64,000 nucleotides of DNA, taken from contig NZ_RJSE01000007.1 of the NCBI RefSeq assembly GCF_003725695.1, forward strand, positions 1,584,758 through 1,648,757, given 5' to 3'. The number at the start of each line of letters is the position of its first letter. The stretch's first letter is position 1. Below are positions 12,313 to 42,812 of this stretch, one piece after another. The position numbers were made by a program, and so were the translations under genes. The notes below the pieces were generated by a model that did no database searches, was not told the origin of the DNA, and saw nothing but the letters and a program-made list of their open reading frames with translations. Origin of the DNA: Nocardioides marmoriginsengisoli (lineage in GTDB: Bacteria; Actinomycetota; Actinomycetes; Propionibacteriales; Nocardioidaceae).

Positions 12313-12330
12313 GTGGAGCTCCTGTCGGTT

Positions 12331-27487: not shown

Positions 27488-28465
27488 ATGAAGCAGTTCA
27501 CTCATGACGCACCGCAGGGAATCGCTACCGGCCTGGGCTGGGCGCTGCTCTCCGCGGCGTTGTTCGGGACCTCGGGCGCCCTCGGCAGCGGCCTGATGGA
27601 CGCGGGCTGGTCGGCCGGCGGGGCGGTCGCGGCCCGGGTGAGCATCGCCGCGCTGGTGCTGCTCGTCCCGGCCTGGATCGCCCTGGACGGGCGCTGGTCG
27701 CTGCTTCGCGCCGAGCTGGGCACGCTCGTGGCCTACGGACTGGTCGCCGTTGCCGGCTGCCAGCTCGCCTACTTCAACGCCATCCAGCACATGGAGGTCG
27801 GCGTCGCCCTGCTGATCGAGTACGCCGCCCCGGTGGCCGTCCTGGGCTGGGCCTGGTTCCGGCACGGCCAGCGTCCCGGGCGGGTGACGATCCTCGGCTC
27901 CGTGGTCGCCGTGCTCGGCCTGGTGCTGGTGCTGGACGTGGTCTCGGGGGCGAGCGTCAGCATCCCCGGTGTCTCCTGGTCGCTGCTCGCGATGGTCGGG
28001 GCCGCGGTGTACTTCATCCTCTCCGCGCGCCGGAGCGAGCTGCCCCCGCTGGTCCTCGCCGGCGGTGGGCTCGCGCTCGCGGCGGTCACGCTGATCGGTG
28101 CCGGCGCGATCGGCGTGCTCGACCTGTCCGGTTCCACCCGGGACGTCGACTACTCCGGGACCACGGTTCCGTTCTGGGCGCCGCTGCTGGCTCTGGGTCT
28201 GCTCTCCGGGGCGATCGCGTACGTCAGCGGTATCGCGGCCTCGCGGCGACTGGGCTCCCGGGTGGCGTCATTCGTCGCCCTGATCGAGGTGCTCTTCGCA
28301 CTGCTCTTCGCCTGGCTGCTGCTCCGCCAGCTCCCGGGCGCGATCCAGTTCGCCGGTGCCGGCTTGGTACTGATCGGCGTGATCGTGGTGAAGGCGGGGG
28401 AGAAGCAGACGGTCCGGCTCCAGGTCGCCCCGGAGCCGGACACGGTGCTGGCGGAAGCCGCTTAG
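27488..28465 (+). CDS. EamA/DMT family transporter
   Basis: A 325-residue drug/metabolite transporter with ten predicted membrane helices in two EamA repeats (about 15-150 and 165-300). The pattern AYFNAIQHMEVGVALLIEYAAPVAVLGWAW in the first repeat is typical. It is expected to export a small molecule or amino acid. It has a good -35/-10 promoter and is divergent from the CGNR regulator. Its stop overlaps the convergent coiled-coil gene by four bases. Confidence 0.87.
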   Translation: MKQFTHDAPQGIATGLGWALLSAALFGTSGALGSGLMDAGWSAGGAVAARVSIAALVLLVPAWIALDGRWSLLRAELGTLVAYGLVAVAGCQLAYFNAIQHMEVGVALLIEYAAPVAVLGWAWFRHGQRPGRVTILGSVVAVLGLVLVLDVVSGASVSIPGVSWSLLAMVGAAVYFILSARRSELPPLVLAGGGLALAAVTLIGAGAIGVLDLSGSTRDVDYSGTTVPFWAPLLALGLLSGAIAYVSGIAASRRLGSRVASFVALIEVLFALLFAWLLLRQLPGAIQFAGAGLVLIGVIVVKAGEKQTVRLQVAPEPDTVLAEAA

Positions 28466-29709
28466 GCCTCCTCGGCCTCGTCCTCGTCCTTGTCGTCGTC
28501 GCTGCCGAAGCCGGCGACGACGTCCTTCAGGGCGCCGAGCTGCGCGACGATCGCGTCGCGGCGCTTGGAGACCCGGGCCACTTCGGCCTTGATCGCGGAG
28601 AGCGCCCGCTCGGACTCGGCGTGGCCGGAGCTGCGCAGGCTCTCGGCCTCCTTCTTGGCGGCGTTGACCAGCTGCTCGGCCTCCCGGCGGGCCTTGGAGA
28701 GCAGCGAGTCGGCCTCGGCCTGGGCGTTGTCGCGGTGCAGGTTCGCGGCGTTGATCGACTCCCGCGAGCGGTCCTCGGCGGCGTTCGCGCGGGCCTCCGC
28801 CTCGGAGACCAGCCGGTGCGACTCCGTCGTGGCGGTCTCGTGGTGCTCCGCCGCCTCGCGGACCAGTCGCTCGCGCTCGACGGCCATCACCCGGCGGGCC
28901 TCGCTGACCTCGCGGTCGACGCCGGCCCGGGCCTGCTCGACCTCGCGGGCGGTGCTGGTGCGCAGGGCGGTGGTCGCCTGCTCGGTCGCCAGCCGCAACT
29001 GGTCGGCCTCGCGCTGGGCGGCCGCGAGGTGGTCGTCGGCGTCGGCCTTGAGCCGGCGGCGCTCGGCCTCGATCTCGGCCATCGTCCGGATCCGCAGGTC
29101 GTCGAGCTCGCCGAGCTGGACCACGCGCATGTCGTCGGCGTCGCTCTCGGCCTGGGCGCGGACCGCCGCGGCGTCGCGCTCGGCCTGGGCCAGCAACGAG
29201 GCGGCCTTCTCGGTCGCCTCGCCGAGGACGTCCTCGGCCTGCTCCTCGGCCAGGCGCAGCATCTCGCTCGCCCGGCCGCCGAGACCGGCGTACGACGGGG
29301 CCTCGACCTCGCTGGCCTTCTCCTGGAGCCGGGCGTTCTCGGCCTGGCCTGCGCGGACCTTCTCCTGGGCCTCGTTCAGGCTCGCGATCAGGCCGGCCTT
29401 CTCCGCCGAGATGGTGCGCAGGTGCTTGTCGACCGCGTCCTTGTCGTACCCGCCGCGACGGACCAGCGGCAGTGCGGCGGCACTCGTCGAGGCGGCCTTC
29501 GGCGGCACCAGCGGTGCGTTCGCCGAGCGGGCGGGCTCCGCGGTGGCCGGCGCTGCCGGCGCGGCGACGGGAGCGGCCGGAGCGGGTGCCGGCTTCGCGG
29601 CGGCGGGTGCCGGCGGTGTGCTCTGATCGACGACCCGGGGGATCACCTGCGTCGGCTCGTCCGCGTCGGCGGCCTCGTCGAAGATGGACAGTCCTCGGTC
29701 GTCACTCAT
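28462..29709 (-). CDS. Long coiled-coil protein, DivIVA/Scy-like in character
   Basis: A 415-residue cytoplasmic protein. Residues 1-~95 are a disordered Pro/Ala-rich region (QSTPPAPAAAKPAPAPAAP), a short segment ~100-130 (RRGGYDKDAVDKHLRTISAEKAGL) resembles the DivIVA N-terminal hook, and ~130-400 is almost continuous Ala/Glu/Arg heptad coiled coil. The C-terminus is acidic. Such proteins organise polar growth or division in actinobacteria; this specific role is inferred. ATG at 29709 has GAGGGAAACC directly upstream. Confidence 0.7.
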   Translation of the reverse strand: MSDDRGLSIFDEAADADEPTQVIPRVVDQSTPPAPAAAKPAPAPAAPVAAPAAPATAEPARSANAPLVPPKAASTSAAALPLVRRGGYDKDAVDKHLRTISAEKAGLIASLNEAQEKVRAGQAENARLQEKASEVEAPSYAGLGGRASEMLRLAEEQAEDVLGEATEKAASLLAQAERDAAAVRAQAESDADDMRVVQLGELDDLRIRTMAEIEAERRRLKADADDHLAAAQREADQLRLATEQATTALRTSTAREVEQARAGVDREVSEARRVMAVERERLVREAAEHHETATTESHRLVSEAEARANAAEDRSRESINAANLHRDNAQAEADSLLSKARREAEQLVNAAKKEAESLRSSGHAESERALSAIKAEVARVSKRRDAIVAQLGALKDVVAGFGSDDDKDEDEAEEA

Positions 29710-29810
29710 GGTTTCCCTCATGGTCGGCGGTTGCATCGATTAGCCCCTCGAACCCAGTCTTGCCGATCGTGGACCGGAATCCCAAGCCGACCACAGTCCG
29801 GATACGCCGA

Positions 29811-29850
29811 CGGGGCCCGATCTCCGTCCCAGGACGGAGATCGAGCCCCG
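29811..29850 (-). terminator. Strong hairpin terminator after ccrA
   Basis: Stem of 12 bp (29818-29829 with 29832-29843), one mismatch, then 6 more bp (29811-29816 with 29845-29850). It lies 23-62 bases downstream of the ccrA stop on the minus strand and isolates ccrA from the coiled-coil gene. No U-tract follows, as usual in high-GC actinobacteria. Confidence 0.75.
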
Positions 29851-29872
29851 GTGACGGGTGCTCGAGCCGGGA

Positions 29873-31210
29873 TCAGACGCCGCGGAAGGCGTTGATCTTG
29901 TCGAGGTGCTTCGCGCGGAGCTCGGGGTTCTTGACGCCGAGGCCCTCCTCGGGCGAGAGGCAGAGGACGCCGACCTTGCCCTGGTGCTTGTTGTGGTGCA
30001 CGTCGAGCGCGGCCTGGCCGGTCTCCTCGAGCTTGTAGGTGCGCGACAGGGTCGGGTGGATCTTGCCTTGGGCGATGAGGCGGTTGGCCTCCCACGACTC
30101 GCGGTAGTTGGCGAAGTGGCTGGAGATGATCTTCTTCAGGTTCATCCACAGGTAGCGGTTGTCGTACTCGTGCATGTAGCCGGTGGTCGACGCGCAGGTG
30201 GTGATGGTGCCGCCCTTGCGGGTGACGTAGACCGAGGCGCCGAAGGTCTCCCGGCCCGGGTGCTCGAAGACGATGTCGATGTCCTCGCCGCCGGTGAGCT
30301 CGCGGATTGCCTTGCCGAAGCGCTGCCACTCCTTCGGGTTCTGCTTGGTGCCCTCCTCGTTCCAGAACTTCGGAGCGAGCTCGGAGCGGTTGATCACCAT
30401 CTCGGCGCCCATGTTGCGCACGATCTGGGCCTTCTCCTCGTTGGAGACGACGCAGACCGGGTTCGCGCCGCCGTTGAGCGCGTACTGGGTGGCGAAGCCG
30501 CCGAGGCCGCCGGAGGCACCCCAGATGAGGACGTTGTCGCCCTGCTTCATGTTGCCGCCGTTGGAGGAGACCAGCTGGCGGTAGGCGGTGGAGTTCACCA
30601 GGCCGGGCGAGGCCGACTCCTCCCAGGTGAGGTGCTCGGGCTTGGGCATGAGCTGGTTGGCCTTGACCATCGCGACGTCGGCGAGACCGCCGAAGTTGGT
30701 CTCGAAGCCCCAGATCCGCTGCGAGGTGTCGAGCATCGTGTCGTTGTGGCCGTCGGGAGCCTCGAGCTCGACCGAGAGGCAGTGCGCGACGACGCGGTCG
30801 CCGGCCTTCCACCGGGTCACGCCCGCGCCGGTGGCCAGCACGACGCCGGACAGGTCCGAGCCGACGATGTGGTACGGCAGGTCGTGCCGCTTGGAGAGCT
30901 CGGACTCGCGGCCGTAGCGCTCCAGGAAGCCGAAGGTGGAGACCGGCTCGAAGATCGAGGTCCAGACGGTGTTGTAGTTGATCGAGCTGGCCATCACCGC
31001 GACCAGGGCCTCGCCCGGGCCGAGCTCGGGGAGCGGGACCTCGTCGAGGTGGAGCGACTTGCGGGGGTCCTTGTCCCGCGACTCCTGGCCCTCGAACATG
31101 TCGACCTCGTCCTTGTGGACCGTCACGGCCCGGTAGGACTCGGGGAGAGCGAGGGCTGCGAAGTCCTCGCTGGAGGCATCCGCGTTGATCGCGTCGAGAA
31201 TGTGCTGCAC
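29873..31210 (-). CDS. ccrA: Crotonyl-CoA carboxylase/reductase
   Basis: A 445-residue medium-chain dehydrogenase/reductase that reductively carboxylates crotonyl-CoA to ethylmalonyl-CoA with NADPH. N80, F169-E170 and H365 (SINYNT, WGFETN, SSHFANY) line up with the CO2-binding residues reported for the Kitasatospora enzyme; GASGGLGGFA (231-240) is the NADPH motif. It supplies ethylmalonyl-CoA for acetyl-CoA assimilation or polyketide extension. The start is GTG (31208-31210) with AGGAG eight bases upstream. A 7-bp inverted repeat lies in its promoter region. Confidence 0.95.
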   Translation of the reverse strand: MQHILDAINADASSEDFAALALPESYRAVTVHKDEVDMFEGQESRDKDPRKSLHLDEVPLPELGPGEALVAVMASSINYNTVWTSIFEPVSTFGFLERYGRESELSKRHDLPYHIVGSDLSGVVLATGAGVTRWKAGDRVVAHCLSVELEAPDGHNDTMLDTSQRIWGFETNFGGLADVAMVKANQLMPKPEHLTWEESASPGLVNSTAYRQLVSSNGGNMKQGDNVLIWGASGGLGGFATQYALNGGANPVCVVSNEEKAQIVRNMGAEMVINRSELAPKFWNEEGTKQNPKEWQRFGKAIRELTGGEDIDIVFEHPGRETFGASVYVTRKGGTITTCASTTGYMHEYDNRYLWMNLKKIISSHFANYRESWEANRLIAQGKIHPTLSRTYKLEETGQAALDVHHNKHQGKVGVLCLSPEEGLGVKNPELRAKHLDKINAFRGV

Positions 31211-31241
31211 GTCAGGAACTCCTGCTCTCTGGCTTACTTGC

Positions 31242-31272
31242 TGACTCGGGGCCGAATGTTACCCGCGAGTCA
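31242..31272. promoter_or_regulatory. Inverted repeat upstream of ccrA
   Basis: TGACTCG (31242-31248) and CGAGTCA (31266-31272) are perfectly complementary with a 17-base spacer, 32-62 bases upstream of the ccrA start. Position and symmetry suggest an operator, or a terminator for the upstream epimerase gene, which ends only 54 bases away. Confidence 0.45.
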
Positions 31273-31325
31273 CGTGGTGTGGGCCGGGCTGTGCCCGACG
31301 TCTCAGTGGCCGGTAATCCGGCGCC

Positions 31326-31799
31326 TCAGTGGCCGTCGGCGGCCGGCTCGACCAGCTCCACCAGGACCCCGCCGGCGTCCTTGGGGTGGATGAAGTTGAT
31401 CCGGCTGTTGGCGGTTCCGCGCTTCGGGGCGTCGTACAGGAGGCGCAGGCCGCGCTCGCGCAGCACCGCGGAGGCCTTCTCGACGTCGGTGACGCGGTAG
31501 GCCAGCTGCTGGAGGCCCGGGCCGGAACGGTCCAGGAACTTCGCGATCGTCGACTCGTCGTTGAGCGGGGCCAGCAGCTGGATCCGCTGGGTGCCCGAGA
31601 GATCAGCGTCGCCTCCGCCCCTGTTGATCTGCATCATCGCCTCCTCGACCTTCTGCTCCTCGTTGACCTCGCGGTGCGCGACCGTCATGCCGAACGCGGT
31701 CGTGTACAGCTCGATCGCGGCGTCCAGGTCGGGGACGGCGACGCCGACGTGGTCGATGCAGAGGAAGAGTTCGTCGGGCAGGCCCAGGGGAGTGGTCAT
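31326..31799 (-). CDS. mce: Methylmalonyl/ethylmalonyl-CoA epimerase
   Basis: A 157-residue vicinal-oxygen-chelate protein. The family pattern IDHVGVAVPDLDAAIELY at the start, QLLAPLNDES in the middle, GLQQLAYRVTDVEKA and the ending VLVELVEP match methylmalonyl-CoA epimerases, including the metal-binding His, Gln and Glu positions. It equilibrates (2R)- and (2S)-methylmalonyl- or ethylmalonyl-CoA. It lies upstream of ccrA on the same strand, which favours a role on ethylmalonyl-CoA. ATG 31799 is used because the fold begins immediately after it. Confidence 0.88.
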   Translation of the reverse strand: MTTPLGLPDELFLCIDHVGVAVPDLDAAIELYTTAFGMTVAHREVNEEQKVEEAMMQINRGGGDADLSGTQRIQLLAPLNDESTIAKFLDRSGPGLQQLAYRVTDVEKASAVLRERGLRLLYDAPKRGTANSRINFIHPKDAGGVLVELVEPAADGH

Positions 31800-31915
31800 G
31801 GGCACATCTTCATGGTGCGGCGACCCAACCTCAACGACCTGTGACGAGGCCGACAACCAGTATTAGGTGCCGGTGATACCTTGATGCCGCTTCCGCCGAC
31901 CCCCAGGAGTCTTGA

Positions 31916-32152
31916 ATGTCCGACCGTCTGCTCGAGGTTTTCTCGGAGGGACTCTCGATCCCCGTCGCCGAGCTCAACGACGAGACCAGCCCGACCAACA
32001 CCTCGGCCTGGGACTCGCTGGCCGCGATGGAGATGGTCACCCTGATCGAGGACGAGTTCGACGTGCGCCTCAAGGTCGCGGAGATCATGAAGATGCGTTC
32101 GATCGGCCTGGCCCGGACGGTTCTCCGCGGCAAGGGCGTCGAGGGCATCTGA
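31916..32152 (+). CDS. Acyl carrier protein
   Basis: A 78-residue acyl carrier protein. Ser34 in TSAWDSLAAMEM is the phosphopantetheine site, and the acidic helix EMVTLIEDEFDVRL follows. The RBS CAGGAG precedes the ATG. It is the first gene of the FkbH-MBOAT operon and starts nine bases before the FkbH gene, so its cargo is most likely the group loaded by FkbH. It is the counterpart of DltC in the Dlt comparison described under findings. Confidence 0.9.
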   Translation: MSDRLLEVFSEGLSIPVAELNDETSPTNTSAWDSLAAMEMVTLIEDEFDVRLKVAEIMKMRSIGLARTVLRGKGVEGI

Positions 32153-32160
32153 CAACGCGG

Positions 32161-33870
32161 ATGACGGTGACTGACCCGAGCACGGTGGTCGGCCTCACGG
32201 CCAGCTTCACGCCTCAACCACTGGTCAGGCCGCTGCGCGCTGCCCTGGAATCGGCCCTGGAATCGGTTCTGGGCGACTCGGCAACCGCCGAGGTGCTGGT
32301 CGCCGACTTCAACCAGGTGCACCAGACCCTGCTCGACCCGGCCTCGAGCTTCGAGAAGCCGCTCGACCGGCTGCTGGTGCTCTGGCGGATCGAGGACGTG
32401 TTCTCGGCCGCCGTGACCATCTGGGTGATCGAGTCCGGGGACGCCTCCGCGCTGGTCGCCGACGTCCGGCAGCTGGGCGCGCTGGTCGCCCAGGCCGCGG
32501 CAGCCGGCGTACCGGTCGTCGCCACGATCCCGCCGGTGCCGGAGTTCTCCTGGCTGGACCCGCTGGACACCCGCACCAGCGTGCGGCTGACCGTTCTGCA
32601 CGGCCAGCTGGTGGCCGCGTTCGTCGACGGGATCGGTCAGGCGCCGGTGACCCTGGTCGACCTGGCCGCTCTCCAGCGCCAGCACGGCAGCGCCCGGGCG
32701 CACGACACCCGCAACGACCTGATGTACCACCAGCCCTACACCAGCGAGTTCGCCAAGGTCCTCGGCACGCTCCTCGGCGAGGCGCTCGCCCAGCTGGGCC
32801 GGCCGACGCCGAAGGTGCTGGCCGTGGACGCCGACAACACCCTGTGGGGCGGGATCGTCGGCGAGGACGGCGCCGACGGCATCCTGATCGGCGACAGCTT
32901 CCCGGGCAACGGCTTCCGCGCCCTGCAGCAGGGACTGGCCTACCAGGCCGCCAACGGAGCCCTGCTCGCGATGGTGAGCAAGAACAACGAGCAGGACGTC
33001 GAGGAGGTCTTCGACAACCGCTCCGGGGACATGGTCCTCGGCCGGTCCAGCTTCGCCGCCAAGCGGGTCGACTGGAACAGCAAGGCCGACAACATCGCCG
33101 CCATCGCCGCCGAGCTGAACCTGGGCATCGACAGCTTCGTCTTCATCGACGACAACGACGTCGAGCTGGACGAGGTCCGGCAGCGGCTGTCCGGTGTCGA
33201 GGTCGTCAAGGTCACCGACGAGGCTTCCGAGATCGCCGAGCTGACGGCCGGCTTCAAGGCCTTCCGGTTCGCCCGGGTCTCCCAGGAGGACCGCGAGCGG
33301 ACCGCGATGATGCAGATCGAGGCGGACCGCAAGTCCGCCGCCTCCGGTGCGCTCTCGCACGAGGACTTCCTGCGGTCCCTCGAGCTGACCGTCCGGGTCT
33401 TCGAGCCGACCGAGGCGCACGTCGGACGGGTCGCGCAGCTGATCAACAAGACCAACCAGTTCAACCTGACCACCATCCGGCGCGACGAGGCCGAGGTGGC
33501 CGCCCTGGTCGCCGACGGCACCCACCGGGTCTACGCCGCCGAGGTGTCGGACCGGTTCGGCGGCTACGGGCTGGTCGCGGTCGCGATCGTGGAGACCGGC
33601 GCGGAGCGCTGGGACGTGGACACCTTCCTGATGAGCTGCCGGGTACTGCGCCGCGGTGTCGAGGACGCGATCCTGGCGTGCATCGCCGAGGACGCTGCGG
33701 CTGTCGGAGCCACCGCGCTGCGCGGACGCTACGTCCCGTCGGCCAAGAACGTCCAGGTCGCCGACTTCTACACCGAGCGCGGTTTCAGCAGCTCCGGAGA
33801 GGGTCAGTACGACGCCGTGCTGCCGATCGCCCCGGCGGCGGACCACGTGACGGTGCTCCGCGATGCTTGA
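32161..33870 (+). CDS. FkbH-like HAD-IIIC family protein
   Basis: A 569-residue FkbH-type enzyme. Residues ~1-210 form an N-terminal domain, 218-360 the HAD-like domain with VLAVDADNTLWGG (D223 and D225), and ~420-560 a GNAT-like C-terminal domain. FkbH proteins take 1,3-bisphosphoglycerate, remove phosphate and load the glyceryl group on a carrier protein as a thioester. The adjacent carrier gene fits that chemistry. ATG 32161 follows the carrier stop by eight bases; its own stop overlaps the MBOAT start. Confidence 0.85.
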   Translation: MTVTDPSTVVGLTASFTPQPLVRPLRAALESALESVLGDSATAEVLVADFNQVHQTLLDPASSFEKPLDRLLVLWRIEDVFSAAVTIWVIESGDASALVADVRQLGALVAQAAAAGVPVVATIPPVPEFSWLDPLDTRTSVRLTVLHGQLVAAFVDGIGQAPVTLVDLAALQRQHGSARAHDTRNDLMYHQPYTSEFAKVLGTLLGEALAQLGRPTPKVLAVDADNTLWGGIVGEDGADGILIGDSFPGNGFRALQQGLAYQAANGALLAMVSKNNEQDVEEVFDNRSGDMVLGRSSFAAKRVDWNSKADNIAAIAAELNLGIDSFVFIDDNDVELDEVRQRLSGVEVVKVTDEASEIAELTAGFKAFRFARVSQEDRERTAMMQIEADRKSAASGALSHEDFLRSLELTVRVFEPTEAHVGRVAQLINKTNQFNLTTIRRDEAEVAALVADGTHRVYAAEVSDRFGGYGLVAVAIVETGAERWDVDTFLMSCRVLRRGVEDAILACIAEDAAAVGATALRGRYVPSAKNVQVADFYTERGFSSSGEGQYDAVLPIAPAADHVTVLRDA

Positions 33871-35080
33871 CAGCGATCCGTTCCTGTACTTCTCCGACCT
33901 GCTCGTCCTGATGGTCGTCGTCGTACCGCTCTACTACGTCGCGCCCTGGGCCTGGTTCCGCCAGCTCCTGCTCGGCCTGACCGGCGTCTACCTGACCTTC
34001 CTGATCGCGCCGCGGCTGCTCGCGTTCTACGTGCTCTTCTGGCTGCTGGTCTACGTCTTGCAGCACGCCGCCCGGCTGTTCCGGGACCGCCGGTTCAGCT
34101 GGCTGTGGACGACCCTGCTGATCGGGCTCGCCCTGGCGCCGATGCTGACCTGGAAGCTGTTCGCGGACTGGTCGGTACCCGAGTTCAACATCCAGTTCAA
34201 CGCGCTGGTCGACTGGCTCAACCCGTGGGTCGGCTCGATCGACCGGGTGCGCAGCCTGATCCTGCCGATCGGCCTGAGCTTCGCGACCTTCCGCGCGGTC
34301 GACCAGCTGATCAAGGTGCGCCTGGAGATCGTCGAGCCGCTCTCGCCGCTGCGGCAGTTCTCGTTCGCGTTCTTCCCGTCCGTGCTGGTGATCGGCCCGG
34401 TGATCGAGTACACCGAGATCGAGTCCGGGCTGGCGACGAAGCCGCGCTGGGATCCGCAGGACACCCTGGCCGGGATCCTCACCGTCGCCCTGGGCGCGAT
34501 CAAGGTGTTCGGCATCGCCTACGTCCTCCGGGGCAGCCAGGGCGTCTTCGGGACGAGCACCAGCGACGGGTCCCCGCTGGAGTACTGGCTCGAGCTGGCG
34601 ATGTACGCCTGGTACTTCTACTTCAACTTCTCCGGGTTCTCCGACATGGCGATCGGCAGCGCCCGGATCCTCGGCTACCGGCTGGCACCGAACTTCAACA
34701 ACCCGTACCTGAAGACGAACCCGCAGGACTTCTGGAACAGCTGGCACATGAGCCTGACCCGGTTCGCCCAGCGCAACGTGTTCGTGCCGATGGGCGGCAT
34801 GCGGGCGCGCACCCAGTACCTCGCCATCGTCGCGACGATGATGGTGATCGCGCTCTGGCACGACGTCAGCTTCTCGCTGCTGATCTTCGGTGCGTACCAC
34901 TCGGCGGGTCTGATCGGGCACCGCTGGTGGATCGCCCGGCACCCGGTCCCCGCGGACCGCCCGCTGGTACGCCGGGTGGGCGCGAACGTGCTGTTCTTCG
35001 CGTTCTACCTGCTCAGCCTGCCGCTGCTCAGCCTCGAGCTGTCCTCGCTCCTCGACTTCTACGGGAGGCTGCTGTGGTGA
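33863..35080 (+). CDS. MBOAT-family O-acyltransferase (DltB/AlgI type)
   Basis: A 405-residue polytopic membrane acyltransferase. The MBOAT signature is visible: FNFSGFSDMAIG, then NPYLKTNPQDFWNSWHMSLTRFAQRNVF, and the active-site histidine H333 in IALWHDVSFSLLIFGAYHS. Proteins of this group pass an acyl group across the membrane from a carrier protein (DltB) or onto polysaccharide (AlgI). The start overlaps the FkbH stop by eight bases and its stop overlaps the next start (GTGA). Confidence 0.9.
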   Translation: MLDSDPFLYFSDLLVLMVVVVPLYYVAPWAWFRQLLLGLTGVYLTFLIAPRLLAFYVLFWLLVYVLQHAARLFRDRRFSWLWTTLLIGLALAPMLTWKLFADWSVPEFNIQFNALVDWLNPWVGSIDRVRSLILPIGLSFATFRAVDQLIKVRLEIVEPLSPLRQFSFAFFPSVLVIGPVIEYTEIESGLATKPRWDPQDTLAGILTVALGAIKVFGIAYVLRGSQGVFGTSTSDGSPLEYWLELAMYAWYFYFNFSGFSDMAIGSARILGYRLAPNFNNPYLKTNPQDFWNSWHMSLTRFAQRNVFVPMGGMRARTQYLAIVATMMVIALWHDVSFSLLIFGAYHSAGLIGHRWWIARHPVPADRPLVRRVGANVLFFAFYLLSLPLLSLELSSLLDFYGRLLW

Positions 35081-36276
35081 TCGTCGACCGGTTGCTCGCC
35101 TGGCTCCGGACGGGGCCCGGCTACGTCCCGACGCGCTGGTCGCTGCTCCGGATCGCGATCGTCACCGTGGTCGCGCTGGTGGTGGCCGGGATGGTGCTCC
35201 CGGGGAAGATCAGCACCATCGACGACGGCAAGTACAACGGCCTGGCGACCAAGACCACCCGCAACATCGCGCTCCCGTTCGGGGACACCCGCGGGTTCCG
35301 TCCGACGGATCGACCGAACTCGTTCCGGGTCGCCTGGGTGGGCGGGTCCGAGCTGCTCGGCAAGGGCCTGGGGAAGCGCGCGTTCATCCCGGGGGTCGCC
35401 GCCAAGGAGATCGGCCGGGTCGGGGGCAAGCCGATCTCGACCGACATCTACTACATGGACGCGATCCGGCTCACCGACGAGCTCAGCGCCCTGACCAGCG
35501 CGGTCGCGTCCAAGCCCGACCTGGTGGTCGTCAGCCTCAACCCGGTGTGGGTGATGAACGACCTGGCCGTGCAGCAGTGGGGCTACCTGGACGGCAACCT
35601 GGCGCTGCACAGCGTCGACAAGCCGGCGCTGTGGCCGGTCGTCGCCTCCCTGGTGAGCCCCGGCGACGCCGGGTGGAAGGTGCTCTCCGGCATCAGCGGT
35701 GTCGTCAACGACCGCTATGACTGGGGCGTCGACCTGACCGAGAAGACCGCCGGGTGGTCCTTCCTGCACGAGATCAAGGACGCGAAGCCGCCGGAGCTCT
35801 CGAAGCTGGCCCAGCTCGGGCTGCGCCGCCCGGTGGACTTCTTCTTCGGGGAGTCCCAGGAGGTCGAGGACGCCGCCGGTGACGTCACCGCTGCCCAGTT
35901 CGCGATCCTGGCCCGCGAGGTGGCTTCCCGGTCGTCCTTCAACCGCACCGTGCTGCGGGCGATGATGGACGTCGTCGACCGCGCCGGCGTGGACGCGTAC
36001 TTCTACATGCCGCCGATCAACGCCGAGTTCTACCAGCACCCGGAGGCGAAGCGGTACGTCGACCAAGTCCGGGCGATGCTGGCCGAGGCGTCCGAGGGCC
36101 GGACCAACGCGCACCTCTTCCTCGACCCGCAAGGTCTCCAGGACCGGGTCCCGGAGACCGAGTACGAGGACATCGTGCACGTGCTCGACCCGAAGCCGGA
36201 GGCGGGCGTGCTCGCCGACGACCTCTGCAAGCTGCTCAAGTCCTGGAACCGGGACCCGACCTGCGAAGGGCGCTGA
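35077..36276 (+). CDS. Membrane-anchored SGNH-like protein, DltD/AlgJ-like
   Basis: A 399-residue protein with one N-terminal membrane helix (~23-42, IAIVTVVALVVAGMVL) and a large extracytoplasmic domain. A candidate SGNH serine is S91 in VAWVGGSELLGKG, followed by KPDLVVVSLNPVW and the late YMPPINAEF and DIVHVLDP. This layout resembles DltD or AlgJ, partners of MBOAT acyltransferases. The match to the family is by pattern only. The GTG at 35077 is preferred over 35074 because GGGAGG is eight bases upstream and gives a GTGA overlap. Confidence 0.72.
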   Translation: MIVDRLLAWLRTGPGYVPTRWSLLRIAIVTVVALVVAGMVLPGKISTIDDGKYNGLATKTTRNIALPFGDTRGFRPTDRPNSFRVAWVGGSELLGKGLGKRAFIPGVAAKEIGRVGGKPISTDIYYMDAIRLTDELSALTSAVASKPDLVVVSLNPVWVMNDLAVQQWGYLDGNLALHSVDKPALWPVVASLVSPGDAGWKVLSGISGVVNDRYDWGVDLTEKTAGWSFLHEIKDAKPPELSKLAQLGLRRPVDFFFGESQEVEDAAGDVTAAQFAILAREVASRSSFNRTVLRAMMDVVDRAGVDAYFYMPPINAEFYQHPEAKRYVDQVRAMLAEASEGRTNAHLFLDPQGLQDRVPETEYEDIVHVLDPKPEAGVLADDLCKLLKSWNRDPTCEGR

Positions 36277-36278
36277 GG

Positions 36279-36431
36279 ATGGAACCCGAGAAGACGCCGA
36301 CGGAGCGCCGTACCGGCCTGCCGTCGCGGTTGCTGATCGAGCTGGTCATCGGGCTCGGGCTCGCCGGCGCGGTGGTCCTGGTGGCGTGGGCCTCCAGCAC
36401 CGCGATCCGCTTCGTGTACGGCGGCTACTGA
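36279..36431 (+). CDS. Single-helix membrane microprotein, DltX-like
   Basis: A 50-residue gene two bases after the SGNH-like stop. A charged N-terminus (MEPEKTPTERR) is followed by one membrane helix (~18-38) and a short outer tail ending AIRFVYGGY. The last six residues, FVYGGY, match the F-x-Y-x-x-F/Y pattern at the end of DltX microproteins, where the tyrosine is reported to carry the acyl group. The reading frame is unambiguous; the role is inferred from size, topology, position and this tail. The next gene starts one base after its stop. Confidence 0.75.
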   Translation: MEPEKTPTERRTGLPSRLLIELVIGLGLAGAVVLVAWASSTAIRFVYGGY

Positions 36432-36432
36432 G

Positions 36433-36861
36433 ATGCCGGCGATCGGCGGGGACCAGGAGCTCGGCCCGGGGCTGCACCACGTCGGCTACGTGGTGCCGCG
36501 GATGGCGGCCGGGATCCGGCGCTTCGAGGAGGCCGGCGGCGAGGTCGTGATCGGGCCGACCGACGACCCGGGGCTCGGGGTCAGCTGCGTGCTGATCCGG
36601 CTCCCCGAGGGTGTCGACATCGAGCTGGTCGCCCCGCTGCCGGACAGCGAGTCGCCGATCACCGCGCGGCTCCAGCGCGGCGGCGGCCTGGATCACCTGT
36701 GCTTCTGGGTCGACGACCTCGACGCCTCGCTGGCCCGCGAGCTGGAGAACGACGCGATGCTGCTGGTGCCGCCGACGCACGCGCTCACCTTCGACACCAC
36801 GATCGCCTTCGTGCAGCGCCGCGGCGGCCTGGTCGTCGAGCTGATGAGCACGAAGCGCTGA
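36433..36861 (+). CDS. VOC-family (glyoxalase-like) protein
   Basis: A 142-residue vicinal-oxygen-chelate protein. LHHVGYVVPRMAAGIRRFEE opens the first half, VDIELVAPL closes it, and LDHLCFWVDDLDASL and LVVELMS mark the second half, with metal-binding His and Glu positions kept. It resembles a methylmalonyl-CoA epimerase-like protein, but the substrate is unknown. It begins one base after the microprotein stop and is therefore part of the FkbH-MBOAT operon. Confidence 0.78.
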   Translation: MPAIGGDQELGPGLHHVGYVVPRMAAGIRRFEEAGGEVVIGPTDDPGLGVSCVLIRLPEGVDIELVAPLPDSESPITARLQRGGGLDHLCFWVDDLDASLARELENDAMLLVPPTHALTFDTTIAFVQRRGGLVVELMSTKR

Positions 36862-36864
36862 GCG

Positions 36865-37773
36865 TCAGGCCTTGGCCAGCACGTAGGCGACGTTGATCGG
36901 CAGGTTCTGCTCGCGGGACTCCTCGAGGGTCTTCCCCTCGTAGGGCAGCCGGAGCGGCTCCACGATCCGCAGCCCGCTGCCGGTGATCATCTCCTCCAGC
37001 TCGTCGGTGGTCCGCCACAGGAAGATGTGGTCGACCGCCGGCGCGTTGATGCAGGTGGTGATGAAGATGTACGCGTCGTCCTTGGCCAGCTCGGCGATCC
37101 GGCGCAGGAAGACCTCGGGCTGCTCGACGTGCTCGAGAACCTCGCCCATGACGACGGCGTCGAACGAGCCGGCCTCCAGGTCGGCGGCCTCCAGGAAGTC
37201 GCGCAGCTCGACCCGGGCCGGCGCGCCCGGGTGGAAGTGCTCGACGATCGTCCGGGTCTGCTCCACGCTCGCGGCGGAGAGGTCGACGCCGAGGTAGTCG
37301 TCGAAGCTTCCGGTCTCGATCGCGTCGAGCAGCAGGAAGCCGTGCCCCGGGCCGACCTCCAGGTAGCGACCGCCGCGGTCGCGGGGGATCGTGCGGTGCA
37401 GGAGCCGGGCCATCTCGACGTGGTTGGGCCAGAGGAAGTTCGTGATCGCCAGCCCGTACATGTAGCGGTCCATGTACTCGCGGTCGTGGTAGACCGCGTC
37501 GGCGACCTCGGCGAAGGTCGAGTGCCGGTAGGTGCCGTGGTCGCGGAAGTAGATCTGCTCCTCGAGGGTGTCGCCGAGGATGGTCAGGTAGCTCTCCGCG
37601 AGGTAGTCGAGGGTCAGGCCCTTGCCCATGCAGAACGAGAGGTAGCCGGAGAGGCGGGTCACCTCCTCGGGGGTGGCGCCGCTGATCGCCTGGTCGAGGA
37701 AGCTGCGATGGACGGGATACTGGTCGGCGATGTTCTCGAGGAGGCTGTCGACGACGGCTGTGGTCTCAGTCAT
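36865..37773 (-). CDS. Class I SAM-dependent methyltransferase
   Basis: A 302-residue methyltransferase. An N-terminal helical part (~1-125) precedes the Rossmann core. The SAM motif is YLEVGPGHGFLLLDAI (~138-153), with acidic residue D of GVDLSA after the next strand and VMGEVLEHVEQPE as motif post-II. The target is unknown. It is convergent with the VOC gene (three bases apart) and has its own promoter, so it is not in the FkbH operon, although it may serve the same product. Confidence 0.85.
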   Translation of the reverse strand: MTETTAVVDSLLENIADQYPVHRSFLDQAISGATPEEVTRLSGYLSFCMGKGLTLDYLAESYLTILGDTLEEQIYFRDHGTYRHSTFAEVADAVYHDREYMDRYMYGLAITNFLWPNHVEMARLLHRTIPRDRGGRYLEVGPGHGFLLLDAIETGSFDDYLGVDLSAASVEQTRTIVEHFHPGAPARVELRDFLEAADLEAGSFDAVVMGEVLEHVEQPEVFLRRIAELAKDDAYIFITTCINAPAVDHIFLWRTTDELEEMITGSGLRIVEPLRLPYEGKTLEESREQNLPINVAYVLAKA

Positions 37774-37845
37774 AGCGTGTGCAGGCTACCGCGACGGCCG
37801 TGACAGGCAACCCCGACATGCGGCGGCCCGCCGGCGTGCGGGCGT

Positions 37846-37901
37846 GTGACCGGTACGACATCGATCGGGGGCGAGACCCCCTCCCGAGATCGGTGACCGG
37901 T
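37846..37901. promoter_or_regulatory. Divergent regulatory region before the thiolase gene
   Basis: The 185-base region between the methyltransferase and thiolase holds two direct copies of GTGACCGGT (37846-37854 and 37893-37901) and, between them, a GGGGG-CGAGA-CCCCC hairpin (37867-37881). The GTGACCGGT copies may bind a fatty-acid or acyl-CoA regulator. TAGTGT just after the second copy could be a -10 for the thiolase operon. Confidence 0.4.
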
Positions 37902-37958
37902 GGGTAGTGTCGGGGAGTTCCCTTTCTTGCTCGTCAGAGCGTTCCTTCAGGAGGACCC

Positions 37959-39149
37959 ATGTCCGTCAATGTCATCGTCGCCGGCGCCCGTACGCCGATC
38001 GGCCGCCTGCTCGGCGGCCTGAAGAGCCTCTCGGCTGCTGACCTCGGTGGCGTCGCCATCGCGGGCGCCCTGGAGAAGGCCGGCGTCGCCGCCGACAAGG
38101 TCGACTACCTGATCATGGGCCAGGTCATCCTGGCCGGCGCCGGCCAGAACCCGGCCCGCGCGGCCGGTCTCGCCGGCGGCCTGCCCGCGAACATCCCGTC
38201 GATCACGATCAACAAGGTCTGCCTGTCGGGCCTGAACGCGATCGCGATGGCCGACCAGATGATCCGCGCCGGTGAGCACGAGATCATCGTGGCCGGCGGC
38301 ATGGAGTCGATGACGAACGCCCCGCACCTGCTGCCGAAGTCCCGTGAGGGCTTCAAGTTCGGCGACACCAGCCTGGTGGACTCGATGGCGTACGACGCCC
38401 TCTACGACCAGGCCACCAAGCAGGCGATGGGCGGCCTCACCGAGCAGATCAACGCCGAGGGCGTGAAGCTGACCCGCGAGGAGCAGGACGCGTTCGCGGC
38501 CGCCTCGCACCAGAAGGCCGCCGAGGCCTGGAAGAACGGCGTCTTCGACGAGGAGGTCGTCCCGGTGACGATCCCGCAGCGTCGCGGCGACGCGATCGTG
38601 GTCTCCGCCGACGAGGGCGTCCGCGGCGACACCACCGCCGAGTCCCTGGGCAAGCTGCCGGCGGCGTTCGCCAAGGAGGGCACCATCACCGCCGGTTCGG
38701 CCTCGCAGATCTCGGACGGCGCCTGCGCCGTCGTCGTGATGAGCAAGGCCAAGGCCGAGGAGCTGGGCCTGGAGTGGCTGGCCGAGATCGGTTCGCACGG
38801 CATGGTCGCCGGCCCGGACTCCAGCCTGCAGCTGCAGCCGGCCAACGCCACCAAGCTCGCCTGCGACAAGGAGGGCATCGCCCCGACCGACCTCGACCTG
38901 ATCGAGTTCAACGAGGCGTTCGCCGCGGTCGGCATCGAGTCCACCCGCGCGCTCGGCCTGGACGAGTCGAAGATCAACGTCAACGGCGGCGCGATCGCCC
39001 TGGGCCACCCGGTCGGCATGTCCGGCGCCCGGGTCGTGCTGCACCTGGCGCTCGAGCTGAAGCGCCGCGGTGGCGGCATCGGCGCGGCGGCCCTGTGCGG
39101 TGGTGGCGGTCAGGGTGACGCCCTGATCGTGCGCGTCCCGAAGGCGTAA
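37959..39149 (+). CDS. Acetyl-CoA C-acetyltransferase (thiolase)
   Basis: A 396-residue biosynthetic-type thiolase. The active-site residues are C88 ([12 protein letters not shown]), H350 ([12 protein letters not shown]) and C380 ([11 protein letters not shown]). It condenses two acetyl-CoA to acetoacetyl-CoA or cleaves it. The RBS AGGAGG lies just before the ATG. The next gene (meaB) starts at the base after its stop, so the two share an operon. With the 3-hydroxyacyl-CoA dehydrogenase and ccrA it covers acetyl-CoA to ethylmalonyl-CoA except the enoyl-CoA hydratase. Confidence 0.93.
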
Positions 39150-40115
39150 GTGAGCCGCAGAACGACAGCAGACGTCCCCGGACTGGTCGCGAAGGCCAGG
39201 TCCGGGGACGCTCGTTCTGTCGCCCGGCTGATCTCGCTGGTCGAGGACGCCTCGCCGCTGCTGCGCGAGGTGATGGCGCTGCTCGCCCCCCTGGCCGGCG
39301 GCGCCCACGTCGTCGGCATCACCGGCTCGCCCGGGGTCGGCAAGTCCACCTCGACCAACGCCCTGGTCGGTGCGCTGCGGAGGCAGGGCAAGCGGGTCGG
39401 CGTCCTGGCGGTGGATCCGTCCTCCCCGTTCTCCGGCGGCGCGCTGCTCGGTGACCGGATCCGGATGCAGGACCACGCGCTCGACCCGGAGGTGTACATC
39501 CGGTCGATGGCCTCCCGCGGTCACCTCGGCGGACTCTCCTGGGCCGCCCCGCAGGCGCTGCGGGTGCTGGACGCGGCCGGTTGCGACGTGATCCTGGTCG
39601 AGACCGTCGGTGTCGGGCAGAGCGAGGTGGAGATCGCCTCGATGGCCGACACCACCTTGGTGCTGCTCGCGCCCGGGATGGGTGACGGCATCCAGGCGGC
39701 GAAGGCCGGCATCCTGGAGATCGGTGACCTCTACGTGATCAACAAGGCGGACCGCGACGGCGCCGACACCGTACGCCGGGAGCTCCGCGGCATGCTCGCC
39801 CTCGGTGAGCGCCCCGAGGGTTCCTGGAACCAGCCGATCCTCAAGACCGTGGCGATGCGCGACGAGGGCGTCGACGAGGTGGTCGAGGCGATCGACGCGC
39901 ACCTGGCCCACCTGCGGGACTCGGGAGAGCTGGCCCGGCGCCGGGCGCTGCGGGCCCGCGAGGAGATCGAGGCGATCGCGGTGACCTCGCTGCGCGAGCG
40001 CTGGGGCGACGTGCACGCCCGCACCGAGCTGGACGTTCTCGCCGAACAGGTCGTGGCCGGAACCACGGACCCCTACGCTGCTGCGGACGAGCTGCTCGCC
40101 ACCTACGCGGAGTGA
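39150..40115 (+). CDS. meaB: MeaB-family GTPase chaperone of acyl-CoA mutase
   Basis: A 321-residue P-loop GTPase of the MeaB/ArgK group. Walker A is GSPGVGKST (59-67); then AVDPSSPFSGGALLGDRIRM, VETVGVGQSEVEI and the guanine-specificity NKAD. MeaB proteins load and protect B12-dependent acyl-CoA mutases. The start is GTG directly after the thiolase stop. Its likely client in this window is the isobutyryl-CoA mutase large subunit 2.7 kb downstream, or a methylmalonyl-CoA mutase elsewhere. Confidence 0.92.
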   Translation: MSRRTTADVPGLVAKARSGDARSVARLISLVEDASPLLREVMALLAPLAGGAHVVGITGSPGVGKSTSTNALVGALRRQGKRVGVLAVDPSSPFSGGALLGDRIRMQDHALDPEVYIRSMASRGHLGGLSWAAPQALRVLDAAGCDVILVETVGVGQSEVEIASMADTTLVLLAPGMGDGIQAAKAGILEIGDLYVINKADRDGADTVRRELRGMLALGERPEGSWNQPILKTVAMRDEGVDEVVEAIDAHLAHLRDSGELARRRALRAREEIEAIAVTSLRERWGDVHARTELDVLAEQVVAGTTDPYAAADELLATYAE

Positions 40116-40125
40116 AGGAGTCCCG

Positions 40126-40947
40126 ATGAGAGTCGTGGTCACCGGTGCCGGTCCCGACTCGATCGGGCTCGCCACCGCACGGGCGCTGCGCGACCTGGGC
40201 CACGAGGTCCTGGTCAGCACCCGGTCGACGCCGGTGGACGGCTTCGCCTGGCACCCGCTCGACCTGGCCGACCGCGCGTCGGTGGCCGCGTTCGCAGACT
40301 GGGTCGGGTCGGGGCCGCTGGACGCGCTGGTCAACAACGCCGGCATCCACCTCGACCTGCGGGCGACGTGGAAGGAGCCGAAGCTGCTCGACGGCCACGA
40401 GATCCACTGGCGGACCAACTACCTCGGCACGATGCAGCTCACCGAGGCGCTGCTCCCCGCGGTGCTCAGCGCCGGCGCGGTGACCGGTGACGCCCGGATC
40501 GTGCACGTCGTCTCCTACCTGCACACCCGCGGACGCAACGAGTTCCTCTTCGACGGCGTCGCGCCGTACAGCTCCTGGAAGGCGTACGGGACCACCAAGC
40601 TCGCGCTGATGCACGATGCCGCCCGACTCAGCGGCGAGTACGCCGACCGCGGCCTGCGGGCGGTCTCGGTGCACCCCGGCAAGGTGCTGACCAAGATCGC
40701 CGACGGCGGCCTGGCGAACACGCCGGTGCTGGCGAAGCTGCGGTCCTTCGCGCGGCCGGTGGAGAAGCTGCTGCTGCTCACGCCGGAGCAGGGCGCCGAG
40801 ACGACCGTGCACACCTTGACCACCGCGGACCTGGTCCCCGGCGGCTACTACGCCAAGAGCGCGCTCGCCGAGCCGTCGGCGGACGCGCGGGACGCCTCGG
40901 TCCGCGACCGTCTGCGCGCCGAGACCACCGCCTGGCTGGAGGGCTGA
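40126..40947 (+). CDS. Short-chain dehydrogenase/reductase
   Basis: A 273-residue SDR resembling retinol dehydrogenase-type enzymes. The cofactor motif is TGAGPDSIGLA (6-16), NNAG lies in LDALVNNAGIH, and the catalytic pair is Y154/K158 in YGTTK. The substrate is unknown. The RBS AAGGAG precedes the ATG, ten bases after meaB, so it is part of the thiolase-meaB operon. It is followed one base later by a VOC gene. Confidence 0.87.
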   Translation: MRVVVTGAGPDSIGLATARALRDLGHEVLVSTRSTPVDGFAWHPLDLADRASVAAFADWVGSGPLDALVNNAGIHLDLRATWKEPKLLDGHEIHWRTNYLGTMQLTEALLPAVLSAGAVTGDARIVHVVSYLHTRGRNEFLFDGVAPYSSWKAYGTTKLALMHDAARLSGEYADRGLRAVSVHPGKVLTKIADGGLANTPVLAKLRSFARPVEKLLLLTPEQGAETTVHTLTTADLVPGGYYAKSALAEPSADARDASVRDRLRAETTAWLEG

Positions 40948-40948
40948 G

Positions 40949-41446
40949 ATGACCGCGACCATCGCCACCGGACCGGTCACCCAGATCGCCTGGGTGACCG
41001 ACGACATCGCCGCCACCGAGGCGTTCCTCTCCACCGCCTTCGGCGCCGGCACCTGGACCCGGATGAACGACATCCGCTTCGCGCCGGAGGACTGCACCCT
41101 GCGCGGCGAGCCGGCCGACTTCGTCATCCACGTCTCGATCGTCTACGTCGGCGACCTCCAGCTGGAGGTGATCCAGCCGGTCAGCGGCACCTCCATCTAC
41201 TCCGAGTTCCTGGCGGAGAAGGGCCCGGGACTGCACCACCTCTGCTTCGACGTCGAGGACATGGAGGCGGCGCTGGCGGCTGCGGCGGAGCTCGGGCACC
41301 CGGTGCACCAGGCCGGCAGCATGATGGCCGGCGGGATGGACTTCGCCTACATCGACGGCACCGCGCACGGGGTCCCGTACGTCGAGATCGCCCGGATCGG
41401 TCCCGAGATGAAGGCGATCTTCGAGGCGATCAAAGCGCAGTCGTGA
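40949..41446 (+). CDS. VOC-family protein, methylmalonyl-CoA epimerase-like
   Basis: A 165-residue VOC protein: VTQIAWVTDDIAATEAFLS at the start, LQLEVIQPVSG, then GLHHLCFDVEDMEAAL and VPYVEIARIG. The pattern is like epimerases and fosfomycin-resistance folds; substrate unknown. It is the third VOC gene in the window and the last of the thiolase operon. It is followed by a small hairpin (CGCGC 41447-41451 with GCGCG 41458-41462) that may end the transcript. Confidence 0.8.
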   Translation: MTATIATGPVTQIAWVTDDIAATEAFLSTAFGAGTWTRMNDIRFAPEDCTLRGEPADFVIHVSIVYVGDLQLEVIQPVSGTSIYSEFLAEKGPGLHHLCFDVEDMEAALAAAAELGHPVHQAGSMMAGGMDFAYIDGTAHGVPYVEIARIGPEMKAIFEAIKAQS

Positions 41447-41466
41447 CGCGCGGCTGAGCGCGCCTC

Positions 41467-41496
41467 CCCGATAGTCGGGTTCCCGATTGGTACAAA
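41467..41496 (+). promoter_or_regulatory. Alternating CCCGA/TCGGG arms and -10 before the small membrane protein
   Basis: CCCGA (41467-41471), TCGGG (41475-41479) and CCCGA (41482-41486) can pair in two mutually exclusive ways, and TACAAA (41491-41496) is a likely -10 directly after. This looks like an operator covering the -35 region. No recognisable -35 was seen. Confidence 0.45.
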
Positions 41497-41563
41497 TGAG
41501 GGGACTTGTGCGCACTCGGGCGCACGAAGGTCGTCGGACACGGACCGGAACGGGAGCAGAGCG

Positions 41564-41737
41564 ATGGCGCTGAAGAAGGTGGTACCCCTTCTCCTGGTGG
41601 TGTTCATCGGCTACTACATGTTCACCGACCCGAGCGGGCTGGCCGAGGTGGCGAAGGACGGTGCGGCCTCCCTGTGGGACGGCCTGACCCGGCTCTTCTC
41701 GGCCACCATCGACTTCCTCGACGCGATCCTGTCCTGA
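41564..41737 (+). CDS. Small single-helix protein (57 residues)
   Basis: A 57-residue gene with GGGAG seven bases before its ATG. The N-terminal segment KKVVPLLLVVFIGYYMF is a membrane helix or signal anchor; the rest (SGLAEVAKDGAASLWDG...FSATIDFLDAILS) is an amphipathic helical tail. I do not recognise a family. It precedes the PH-domain membrane protein by 11 bases and may be co-transcribed with it. Confidence 0.6.
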   Translation: MALKKVVPLLLVVFIGYYMFTDPSGLAEVAKDGAASLWDGLTRLFSATIDFLDAILS

Positions 41738-41748
41738 GGGGCGCCGTC

Positions 41749-42273
41749 ATGGCCGTGCTGCCGCGGTTCCTCACCGACCCCGACATCGGTCGGCACCTGC
41801 TCCGCGACGAGGGGGAGGTGATCGTCGACGAGGTCCGCAAGCACCGGATCGTGTACGTCGTCCCGGCGCTGATCGCCTGCGCCGGCGTGGCCTTCCTGGT
41901 GGTCTCGGCGGTCGCGTCGGTCCAGCTCGCCTGGTTGCCGATGCTGCTCGGGTTCGGCCTGCTGGTCTGGGCCGCGTGGCGGGCGCTGGCGGCGAACCTG
42001 GACCGGTTCGTGATCACCAACATGCGGGTCTTCCGGGTCAACGGGGTGCTCTCCCGCTCGCTGGCCACGATGCCGCTGGGCAGGATCCTGGACATCACCG
42101 TGGTGAAGCCGATGACCGGCCGGGTGCTGGGCTACGGCCACTTCACCTTCGAGTCCGCGGCCCAGGACCAGGGCCTGCGGGAGATCCGGTTCGTGGGTGC
42201 CCCCGACCAGCGCGACCTGGCCATCCAGCGCGTGGTGCAGCGCTCCGGCCTGCGCGGGCCCAAGGTGAACTGA
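41749..42273 (+). CDS. PH-domain membrane protein
   Basis: A 174-residue protein with two membrane helices (~38-58 and ~63-80) followed by a bacterial PH-like domain: RFVITNMRVFRVNGVLSRSLATMPLGRILDITVVKP. The function of this family is not established, though it is common in actinobacterial envelopes. ATG 41749 starts at MAVLPRFL. The MarR gene starts with GTG one base after its stop, so the two are co-transcribed. Confidence 0.78.
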   Translation: MAVLPRFLTDPDIGRHLLRDEGEVIVDEVRKHRIVYVVPALIACAGVAFLVVSAVASVQLAWLPMLLGFGLLVWAAWRALAANLDRFVITNMRVFRVNGVLSRSLATMPLGRILDITVVKPMTGRVLGYGHFTFESAAQDQGLREIRFVGAPDQRDLAIQRVVQRSGLRGPKVN

Positions 42274-42274
42274 C

Positions 42275-42760: not shown

Positions 42761-42779
42761 GGCGGTTCTCCCGGGGCTT

Positions 42780-42806
42780 CCCAAATTTAGTTGGGTGTCC
42801 TACTAT
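42780..42806 (+). promoter_or_regulatory. Inverted repeat and leaderless -10 of the mutase gene
   Basis: CCCAA (42780-42784), six bases, TTGGG (42791-42795), followed by TACTAT (42801-42806) exactly six bases before the ATG at 42813. The repeat overlaps the -35 zone and is a plausible MarR site. Confidence 0.6.
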
Positions 42807-42812
42807 CTTGCT

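Follow-up and report, generated by a model that had tools for sequence, protein, structure and literature searches.

A conserved seven-gene locus of Actinomycetota that probably couples an FkbH loader to Dlt-like surface acylation

The window analysed here, 64,000 nucleotides of contig NZ_RJSE01000007.1 from the soil actinobacterium Nocardioides marmoriginsengisoli, contains a compact locus encoding a stand-alone acyl carrier protein (ACP), an FkbH loader, a short MBOAT protein, a DltD-like SGNH protein, a microprotein, a VOC enzyme and a methyltransferase (Table 1). An initial annotation had described the first five genes as a tightly packed operon within positions 31916-36431. All five lie there, and the junctions from ACP to microprotein calculated from the coordinates (an 8-nucleotide gap, an 8-nucleotide overlap, a 4-nucleotide overlap and a 2-nucleotide gap) bear out the packing. 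These five genes stand, but the set is larger: the VOC gene lies 1 nucleotide beyond the microprotein gene and the convergent methyltransferase gene 3 nucleotides further, and both belong to the set, making seven genes in all. From ACP to VOC, the six forward-strand genes are separated by gaps or overlaps of no more than 8 nucleotides.

Table 1. Coordinates and sequence features of the seven genes in the window
Product	Position	Strand	Length	Features
Stand-alone ACP	31916-32152	+	78 amino acids	PP-binding PF00550, E 2e-07
FkbH (HAD-IIIC) loader	32161-33870	+	569 amino acids	ATG start checked; TIGR01686, E 1e-86
Short DltB-like MBOAT	33863-35080	+	405 amino acids	Pfam MBOAT, E 3.8e-21
DltD-like SGNH acyltransferase (putative)	35077-36276	+	399 amino acids	Fold-based; alternative start GTG 35074
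DltX-like single-pass microprotein	36279-36431	+	50 amino acids	C-terminal FVYGGY
VOC (glyoxalase-fold) enzyme	36433-36861	+	142 amino acids	Glyoxalase_4, E 7.3e-17
Class I S-adenosylmethionine (SAM) methyltransferase	36865-37773	-	302 amino acids	Methyltransf_23, E 4.7e-19

The genome survey proposed in the initial annotation recovered all seven genes, VOC and methyltransferase included, in 7/7 system-carrying genomes examined, with the ACP, FkbH and MBOAT genes contiguous in six of them. These are the genome of the window, Nocardioides jensenii (G177), Marmoricola URHB0036 (G857), Intrasporangiaceae URHB0013 (G855) and Terrabacter Root85 (G856), all actinomycetes, together with G858 and G986 from an Acidimicrobiales order group. 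This recurrence indicates that the grouping is more than chance, and we conclude that the gene set is real, conserved and coherent. Searches with the MBOAT protein matched 5/341 genomes of its own family at E 1e-30 (three of the system type and two with long MBOATs), only its own genome among 396 of the phylum at E 1e-40, and, at E 1e-50, 2/298 genomes from the order of G858 and 2/186 from the family of G856. The methyltransferase at E 1e-15 matched 1/396 genomes of the phylum, again its own, among the matches listed, for which at most five candidates per genome were scored. Full-length matches to the SGNH protein were found in 2/196 genomes of the order; a third match (73 residues, E 9.7e-4) was dropped as chance. 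An exact-peptide scan of genome contigs with two patterns located four loci, which is an undercount. We consider it likely that the set specifies an FkbH-loaded trans-membrane acylation system working like Dlt and placing a glycerate-type ester on the cell surface; the acyl identity, its tailoring and the acceptor are what we infer.

The phosphopantetheine-bearing Ser34 of the ACP lies within WDSLAAM, which is kept in 7/7 aligned ACPs, that of the window included. The FkbH protein scored 291 bits against the curated TIGR01686 cut-off of 146.65, placing it within the family, and carries the motif residues D223/D225, K274, D330/D331 and Cys493 (SCRV). Across 14 aligned FkbH proteins (seven of the system, five from Alphaproteobacteria and two from Streptomyces), the D-x-D, DD and SCRV motifs were kept in all and the lysine in 13; we take the cysteine of SCRV to be a catalytic participant. 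The genome of the window contains a single FkbH match, as do those of four relatives. For DltA, the TIGR01734 cut-off is 559.85 bits, which no protein in the seven genomes exceeded (G858 came closest with 309.9, and the genome of the window reached 131.5); two of 14 control genomes were above it. These results agree with the initial annotation, which had put FkbH in the loader's place. In the accessible text of PMC7489565, formation of glyceryl-ACP from 1,3-bisphosphoglycerate by FkbH-like enzymes is worded as likely, and the same donor is assigned with equal caution in that of PMC13122637. The glyceryl basis of the group proposed in the initial annotation is kept, with the transferred group probably tailored and not plain glyceryl, since the set has seven genes rather than five.

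The proposed transfer arm was likewise borne out, through a DltB-like MBOAT, a DltD-like fold and a DltX-type motif. The MBOAT protein scored 76.2 bits against the Pfam MBOAT cut-off of 27, is homologous to DltB (TIGR04091, E 3.7e-34), matches the DltB structure chains 8jem (E 8.5e-20) and 6bug (E 9.8e-20) and has His295 and His333. The C-terminal shuttle motif FXYXXF, which in PatA-type proteins is fused to the MBOAT end, is absent from it and was terminal in 0/120 MBOAT relatives listed, of 307 found; two ordinary long MBOATs of its own family carry a fused terminal FLYFQF, and the short MBOAT has the microprotein instead. The latter matched no family and ends in FVYGGY, a DltX-type acyl-shuttle motif with Tyr47 within it and the final Phe replaced by Tyr. 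Only one of the 431 open reading frames of at least 25 amino acids in the window has the terminus F.Y..[FY], and FVY[GQ]G[FY] was terminal in 120/120 microprotein relatives listed, of 135 found. PMC12148441, in its accessible part, ascribes an acyl-tyrosine role to the motif in DltX and PatA. The SGNH protein has an N-terminal membrane anchor, Ser91 (GGSE) and Asp365xxHis368. By sequence it matched no family above cut-off, and its profile, compared with PDB chains to E 10, returned five distinct sequences, designed helical repeats first, and no DltD, so its assignment rests on the fold. As the initial annotation had suggested checking, the predicted fold was compared with DltD, which filled Foldseek ranks 1-12 with the catalytic Ser, Asp and His present, though at low TM-scores. 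Ordinary O-acetylation genes standing beside an unrelated ACP and FkbH would be a simpler account, and acyl-CoA donors are reported for other MBOAT-SGNH pathways (PMC12148441, in part); we hold it very improbable given the presence of ACP and FkbH in every genome, their contiguity with the MBOAT gene in six, and the short MBOAT without a fused motif.

Related loci were found on plasmids, where FkbH matched 118/72,556 records; nine of these were inspected, a Niallia record among them bearing no annotation, together with a further unannotated S. meliloti stretch and one locus, in Tistrella, reached through the methyltransferase. On pSymB of Sinorhizobium meliloti (L030 4384-10263), genes for VOC, MBOAT, a 'TonB-dependent receptor', ACP and FkbH stand in a row near lsr genes. 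Rhodobacteraceae SC52 encodes ACP, FkbH and MBOAT, then a hypothetical protein and VOC; the Tistrella locus comprises FkbH, methyltransferase, ACP and MBOAT, the last followed by a hypothetical protein; asparagine synthase-related and HPr kinase genes lie about 8 kb from the Tistrella methyltransferase. The MBOATs of Sinorhizobium (FLYQGF), SC52 and Tistrella all end in a fused PatA-type motif, FLYQGF, FIYFNF or FIYAGF. A Paroceanicella profunda plasmid (L032 7042-15076) encodes ACP, FkbH, methyltransferase and VOC, next to which come a hypothetical protein and mprF, with no MBOAT annotated or matched in that stretch; the adjacent mprF suggests that the acyl group may be used on a lipid there. 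In Niveispirillum, FkbH and ACP lie beside a WcbI-type acetyltransferase, and in Aquisphaera, FkbH lies inside an exopolysaccharide cluster. The MBOAT protein itself matched 136/72,556 plasmid records, none over 80% of the query. The VOC protein matched 53/72,556, of which 42 are Sinorhizobium, so these matches represent few independent events; the S. meliloti relative in the FkbH locus is 42% identical, and several weaker matches are annotated as methylmalonyl-CoA epimerase. The methyltransferase matched 2/72,556 (E 1e-5), both adjacent to FkbH.

In the alignment, the VOC proteins of the system, S. meliloti, SC52 and Paroceanicella have H-E-H-E at the metal positions, where the methylmalonyl-CoA epimerase of the window (31326-31799; 139.2 bits against the TIGR03081 cut-off of 114.95) has H-Q-Q-E. 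A second such epimerase was rejected as the identity of the VOC protein of the set, which scored 41.1 bits against the same cut-off. We take H-E-H-E to be the glyoxalase I pattern, and the product of glyoxalase I is a 2-hydroxyacyl thioester. Because a C2 proton shift on such a thioester is plausible chemistry for the VOC fold, the enzyme, which is proposed to tailor the acyl-ACP, perhaps does so by inversion. The same metal positions could suit a group that is not derived from glyceryl, with FkbH loading another acid or the VOC enzyme making a 2-hydroxyacyl-ACP (for example lactyl) from an aldehyde. We regard this as quite unlikely, in view of FkbH motifs that agree with those of the aligned FkbH proteins linked to polyketide synthases (PKS) and of the donor assigned, as likely, to FkbH-like enzymes.

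The model of the methyltransferase (pLDDT 89.6) shows a helical N-terminal domain and a class I fold; its nearest folds include the O-methyltransferases MmcR and DnrK, tied with N-methyltransferases and others. We propose that it perhaps O-methylates the acyl group, a step suggested for suomilide, where the accessible text of PMC13122637 has FkbH-loaded glycerate O-methylated on the carrier. In a variant of the surface acylation model that we find possible but doubtful, the enzyme would modify the acceptor polymer rather than the acyl group. Its gene lies on the opposite strand in the five actinomycete genomes, and G858 has two copies, one with MBOAT, SGNH and microprotein genes and the other apart from these with ACP, FkbH and VOC genes, both of which speak for this variant. 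The Tistrella methyltransferase gene, by contrast, lies between FkbH and ACP, and that of Paroceanicella accompanies ACP, FkbH and VOC genes in the stretch lacking an MBOAT match.

The surroundings of the locus bear on where the group is delivered. In the genome of the window, N. jensenii and Marmoricola, the operon lies between the methylmalonyl-CoA epimerase and a thiolase-MeaB pair; in the two Intrasporangiaceae, none of these flanking genes turned up in the 21 kb surrounding it. The neighbours in the window serve ethylmalonyl/methylmalonyl-CoA metabolism and other functions, and the nearest dehydrogenase-type gene (29873-31210) encodes a crotonyl-CoA carboxylase/reductase (605 against 378.55 bits). 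One gene away from the ACP of G986 is an ABC-2 type exporter (ABC_tran 75.8 against 25 bits; ABC2_membrane 50.3 against 26.9 bits), which presumably carries polysaccharide. G858 has glycosyltransferase genes at a distance of about 6 kb from its FkbH gene, and cytidylyltransferase and 2-hydroxyacid dehydrogenase genes (L020 6978-8668) lie directly upstream of ACP-FkbH; a relative of this cytidylyltransferase occurs at L023 24-380, about 11 kb from the FkbH gene there. PF04464, a teichoic-type polymerase family, was found in the five actinomycetes and not in G858 or G986. Teichoic acid is thus a possible acceptor in those five, and an unlikely common one.

It is also conceivable that FkbH and ACP serve a small-molecule pathway, with MBOAT and SGNH acylating a secreted metabolite or glycolipid. 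Polyketides and nonribosomal peptides are the best-known setting of FkbH, all three annotated Streptomyces FkbH loci inspected adjoin ketosynthase or PKS genes (with no MBOAT or VOC listed within 6 kb), and sugar acylation by an MBOAT is proposed for suomilide in the accessible text of PMC13122637. We nevertheless judge this explanation unlikely. The initial annotation had itself raised the prospect of an FkbH acting in a polyketide pathway with its own PKS; a scan of the genes surrounding the locus (27.5-44.5 kb) showed no PKS, nonribosomal peptide synthetase (NRPS), FkbI/FkbK-type dehydrogenase or FabH-like tetronate synthase, the rest of the genome not having been searched for PKS. The single FkbH match in the genome, together with the exporter and glycosyltransferase genes close to the set in G986 and G858, also argues against it.

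Transfer of an FkbH-loaded group to the surface, the reading we prefer, would begin in the cytoplasm, where FkbH, as expected from its family, would move glyceryl from 1,3-bisphosphoglycerate to the phosphopantetheine arm of the ACP. Both the VOC enzyme and the methyltransferase may then tailor the bound group, the former perhaps inverting or isomerising the 2-hydroxyacyl thioester at C2 and the latter perhaps adding an O-methyl group. By analogy with Dlt and PatAB, the ACP would dock on the MBOAT, which would acylate the microprotein on Tyr47, at its extracellular end; the DltD-like protein would take the group over on Ser91 and use it to esterify a surface glycan or teichoic-type polymer at a hydroxyl. 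We favour this reading because of the family and active-site matches, the DltD-like fold and the DltX-type motif; because the same seven genes recur in every genome while no DltA exceeds its cut-off; because a short MBOAT without the motif is paired with a microprotein, as opposed to long MBOATs fused to FLYFQF; because the G986 exporter and G858 glycosyltransferases lie near the set; because FkbH, ACP and a fused-motif MBOAT occur together in Sinorhizobium, Tistrella and SC52; and because suomilide offers a proposed FkbH-loaded, O-methylated glycerate (PMC13122637, in part).

Several observations weigh against it. The MBOAT protein reached 118.6 bits against the TIGR04091 equivalog cut-off of 375, and the SGNH protein 12 bits against the Pfam DltD cut-off of 22.7. 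The SGNH model is of moderate quality (pLDDT 70.6, with residues 194-234 and 247-268 below 50), its TM-scores to DltD are 0.32-0.42, and GDSL hydrolases tie with DltD in VIA-align. The set of G858 is divided between two contigs, with the second methyltransferase beside the MBOAT. The roles of the VOC enzyme and methyltransferase we infer from co-occurrence; no methyltransferase relative was found in the Sinorhizobium and SC52 stretches fetched, and no VOC relative in that of Tistrella. The VOC proteins of SC52 and Paroceanicella represent another branch, since they are 50% identical to each other, are not matched by the VOC protein of the window and score 58 and 56 bits, below the epimerase cut-off of 114.95. 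GxS and DxxH can be seen by eye in the MBOAT neighbours of Sinorhizobium (GGS and DxxH in the 'TonB-dependent receptor'), SC52 and Tistrella; as relatives of the SGNH profile, however, these neighbours gained no support (hhalign probability at most 1%, no Pfam family above cut-off), which weakens both this reading and the wider one below. Finally, PMC11035591, in its accessible part, questions whether DltD and DltX of the Dlt system carry the acyl group, suggesting regulation as their role.

The wider reading, which we offer as speculative and think rather improbable as a whole, is that FkbH and ACP with VOC and methyltransferase form a general carrier route to glycerate-type esters of surface polymers. 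Its outlets would be two exporters, one split and Dlt-like (Actinomycetota), the other a fused-shuttle MBOAT (Alphaproteobacteria); VOC would invert D-glyceryl-ACP at C2, and the same scheme would lead to the L-glyceryl ester of gellan.

Elsewhere in the window, HPr-kinase-like (below the Pfam cut-off), Transglut_core3 and NTP_transf_5 proteins are encoded in a row at 10738-13646, a trio that we take to be reminiscent of a lasso-peptide-type cluster. Methylmalonyl-CoA mutase and another VOC protein (gene at 40949-41446) are encoded in the stretch 28462-44513 as well. Rfam (gathering cut-off) and tRNA scans of the window gave no match.

No account of FkbH taking part in surface acylation was found in the open-licence literature, outside which most subscription journals lie. 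Within it, glycerate ester with teichoic acid, and glyceric acid with Nocardioides and teichoic, gave no match; co-mentions of FkbH and MBOAT concerned aeruginosin-type peptides, and those of bisphosphoglycerate and FkbH concerned, by title, natural products. The initial annotation had called the modification undescribed, which is too strong: gellan carries an L-glycerate ester according to the accessible parts of PMC9104527 and PMC9737242, the passage of the latter mentioning a glyceryltransferase activity and naming no gene. Glycerate decoration is not wholly new; what the open-licence literature did not yield is a description of the route from FkbH to a Dlt-like machine. If this route is real, FkbH gains a role outside polyketides and nonribosomal peptides, Dlt-type transfer becomes a modular platform with an exchangeable loader, and surface decoration is tied directly to a glycolytic intermediate. 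The origin of glycerate esters on bacterial polysaccharides, a loose end, would become a testable gene set, and the split and fused shuttles of FkbH-linked loci would provide a natural experiment on the origin of DltX-type microproteins.

Among known systems, gellan of Sphingomonas shares the glycerate ester on a bacterial polysaccharide; it is not linked to FkbH here, no Sphingomonas genome having been searched. PatAB-type acetylation shares an MBOAT-SGNH pair with a C-terminal tyrosine motif, but in that system a longer MBOAT carries the motif as a fusion and acetyl-CoA serves as donor (PMC12148441, in part), whereas here a separate microprotein bears it and a carrier protein is present. The FkbH/ACP modules of PKS and NRPS pathways (methoxymalonyl, tetronate, suomilide) share FkbH, ACP and the expected glyceryl-S-ACP, and a precedent for O-methylating the loaded group has been proposed among them. 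They differ in destination: an export-and-transfer machine is expected here, and the FkbI/FkbK, FabH-like and PKS neighbours typical of methoxymalonyl and tetronate pathways were not seen among the genes scanned at 27.5-44.5 kb, nor were NRPS genes. Dlt is the machinery by which some Gram-positive bacteria put D-alanine on the cell wall. With it the system shares a carrier protein, a short MBOAT, a membrane-anchored DltD-like SGNH protein and a microprotein with the shuttle motif, and the order of transfer would be the same. It is not counted as a member of Dlt because the search for DltA found none above cut-off; its loader is FkbH rather than the DltA ligase, its sequences fall under the DltB and DltD cut-offs, VOC and methyltransferase genes are added, and its expected donor is a glycolytic intermediate rather than an amino acid.

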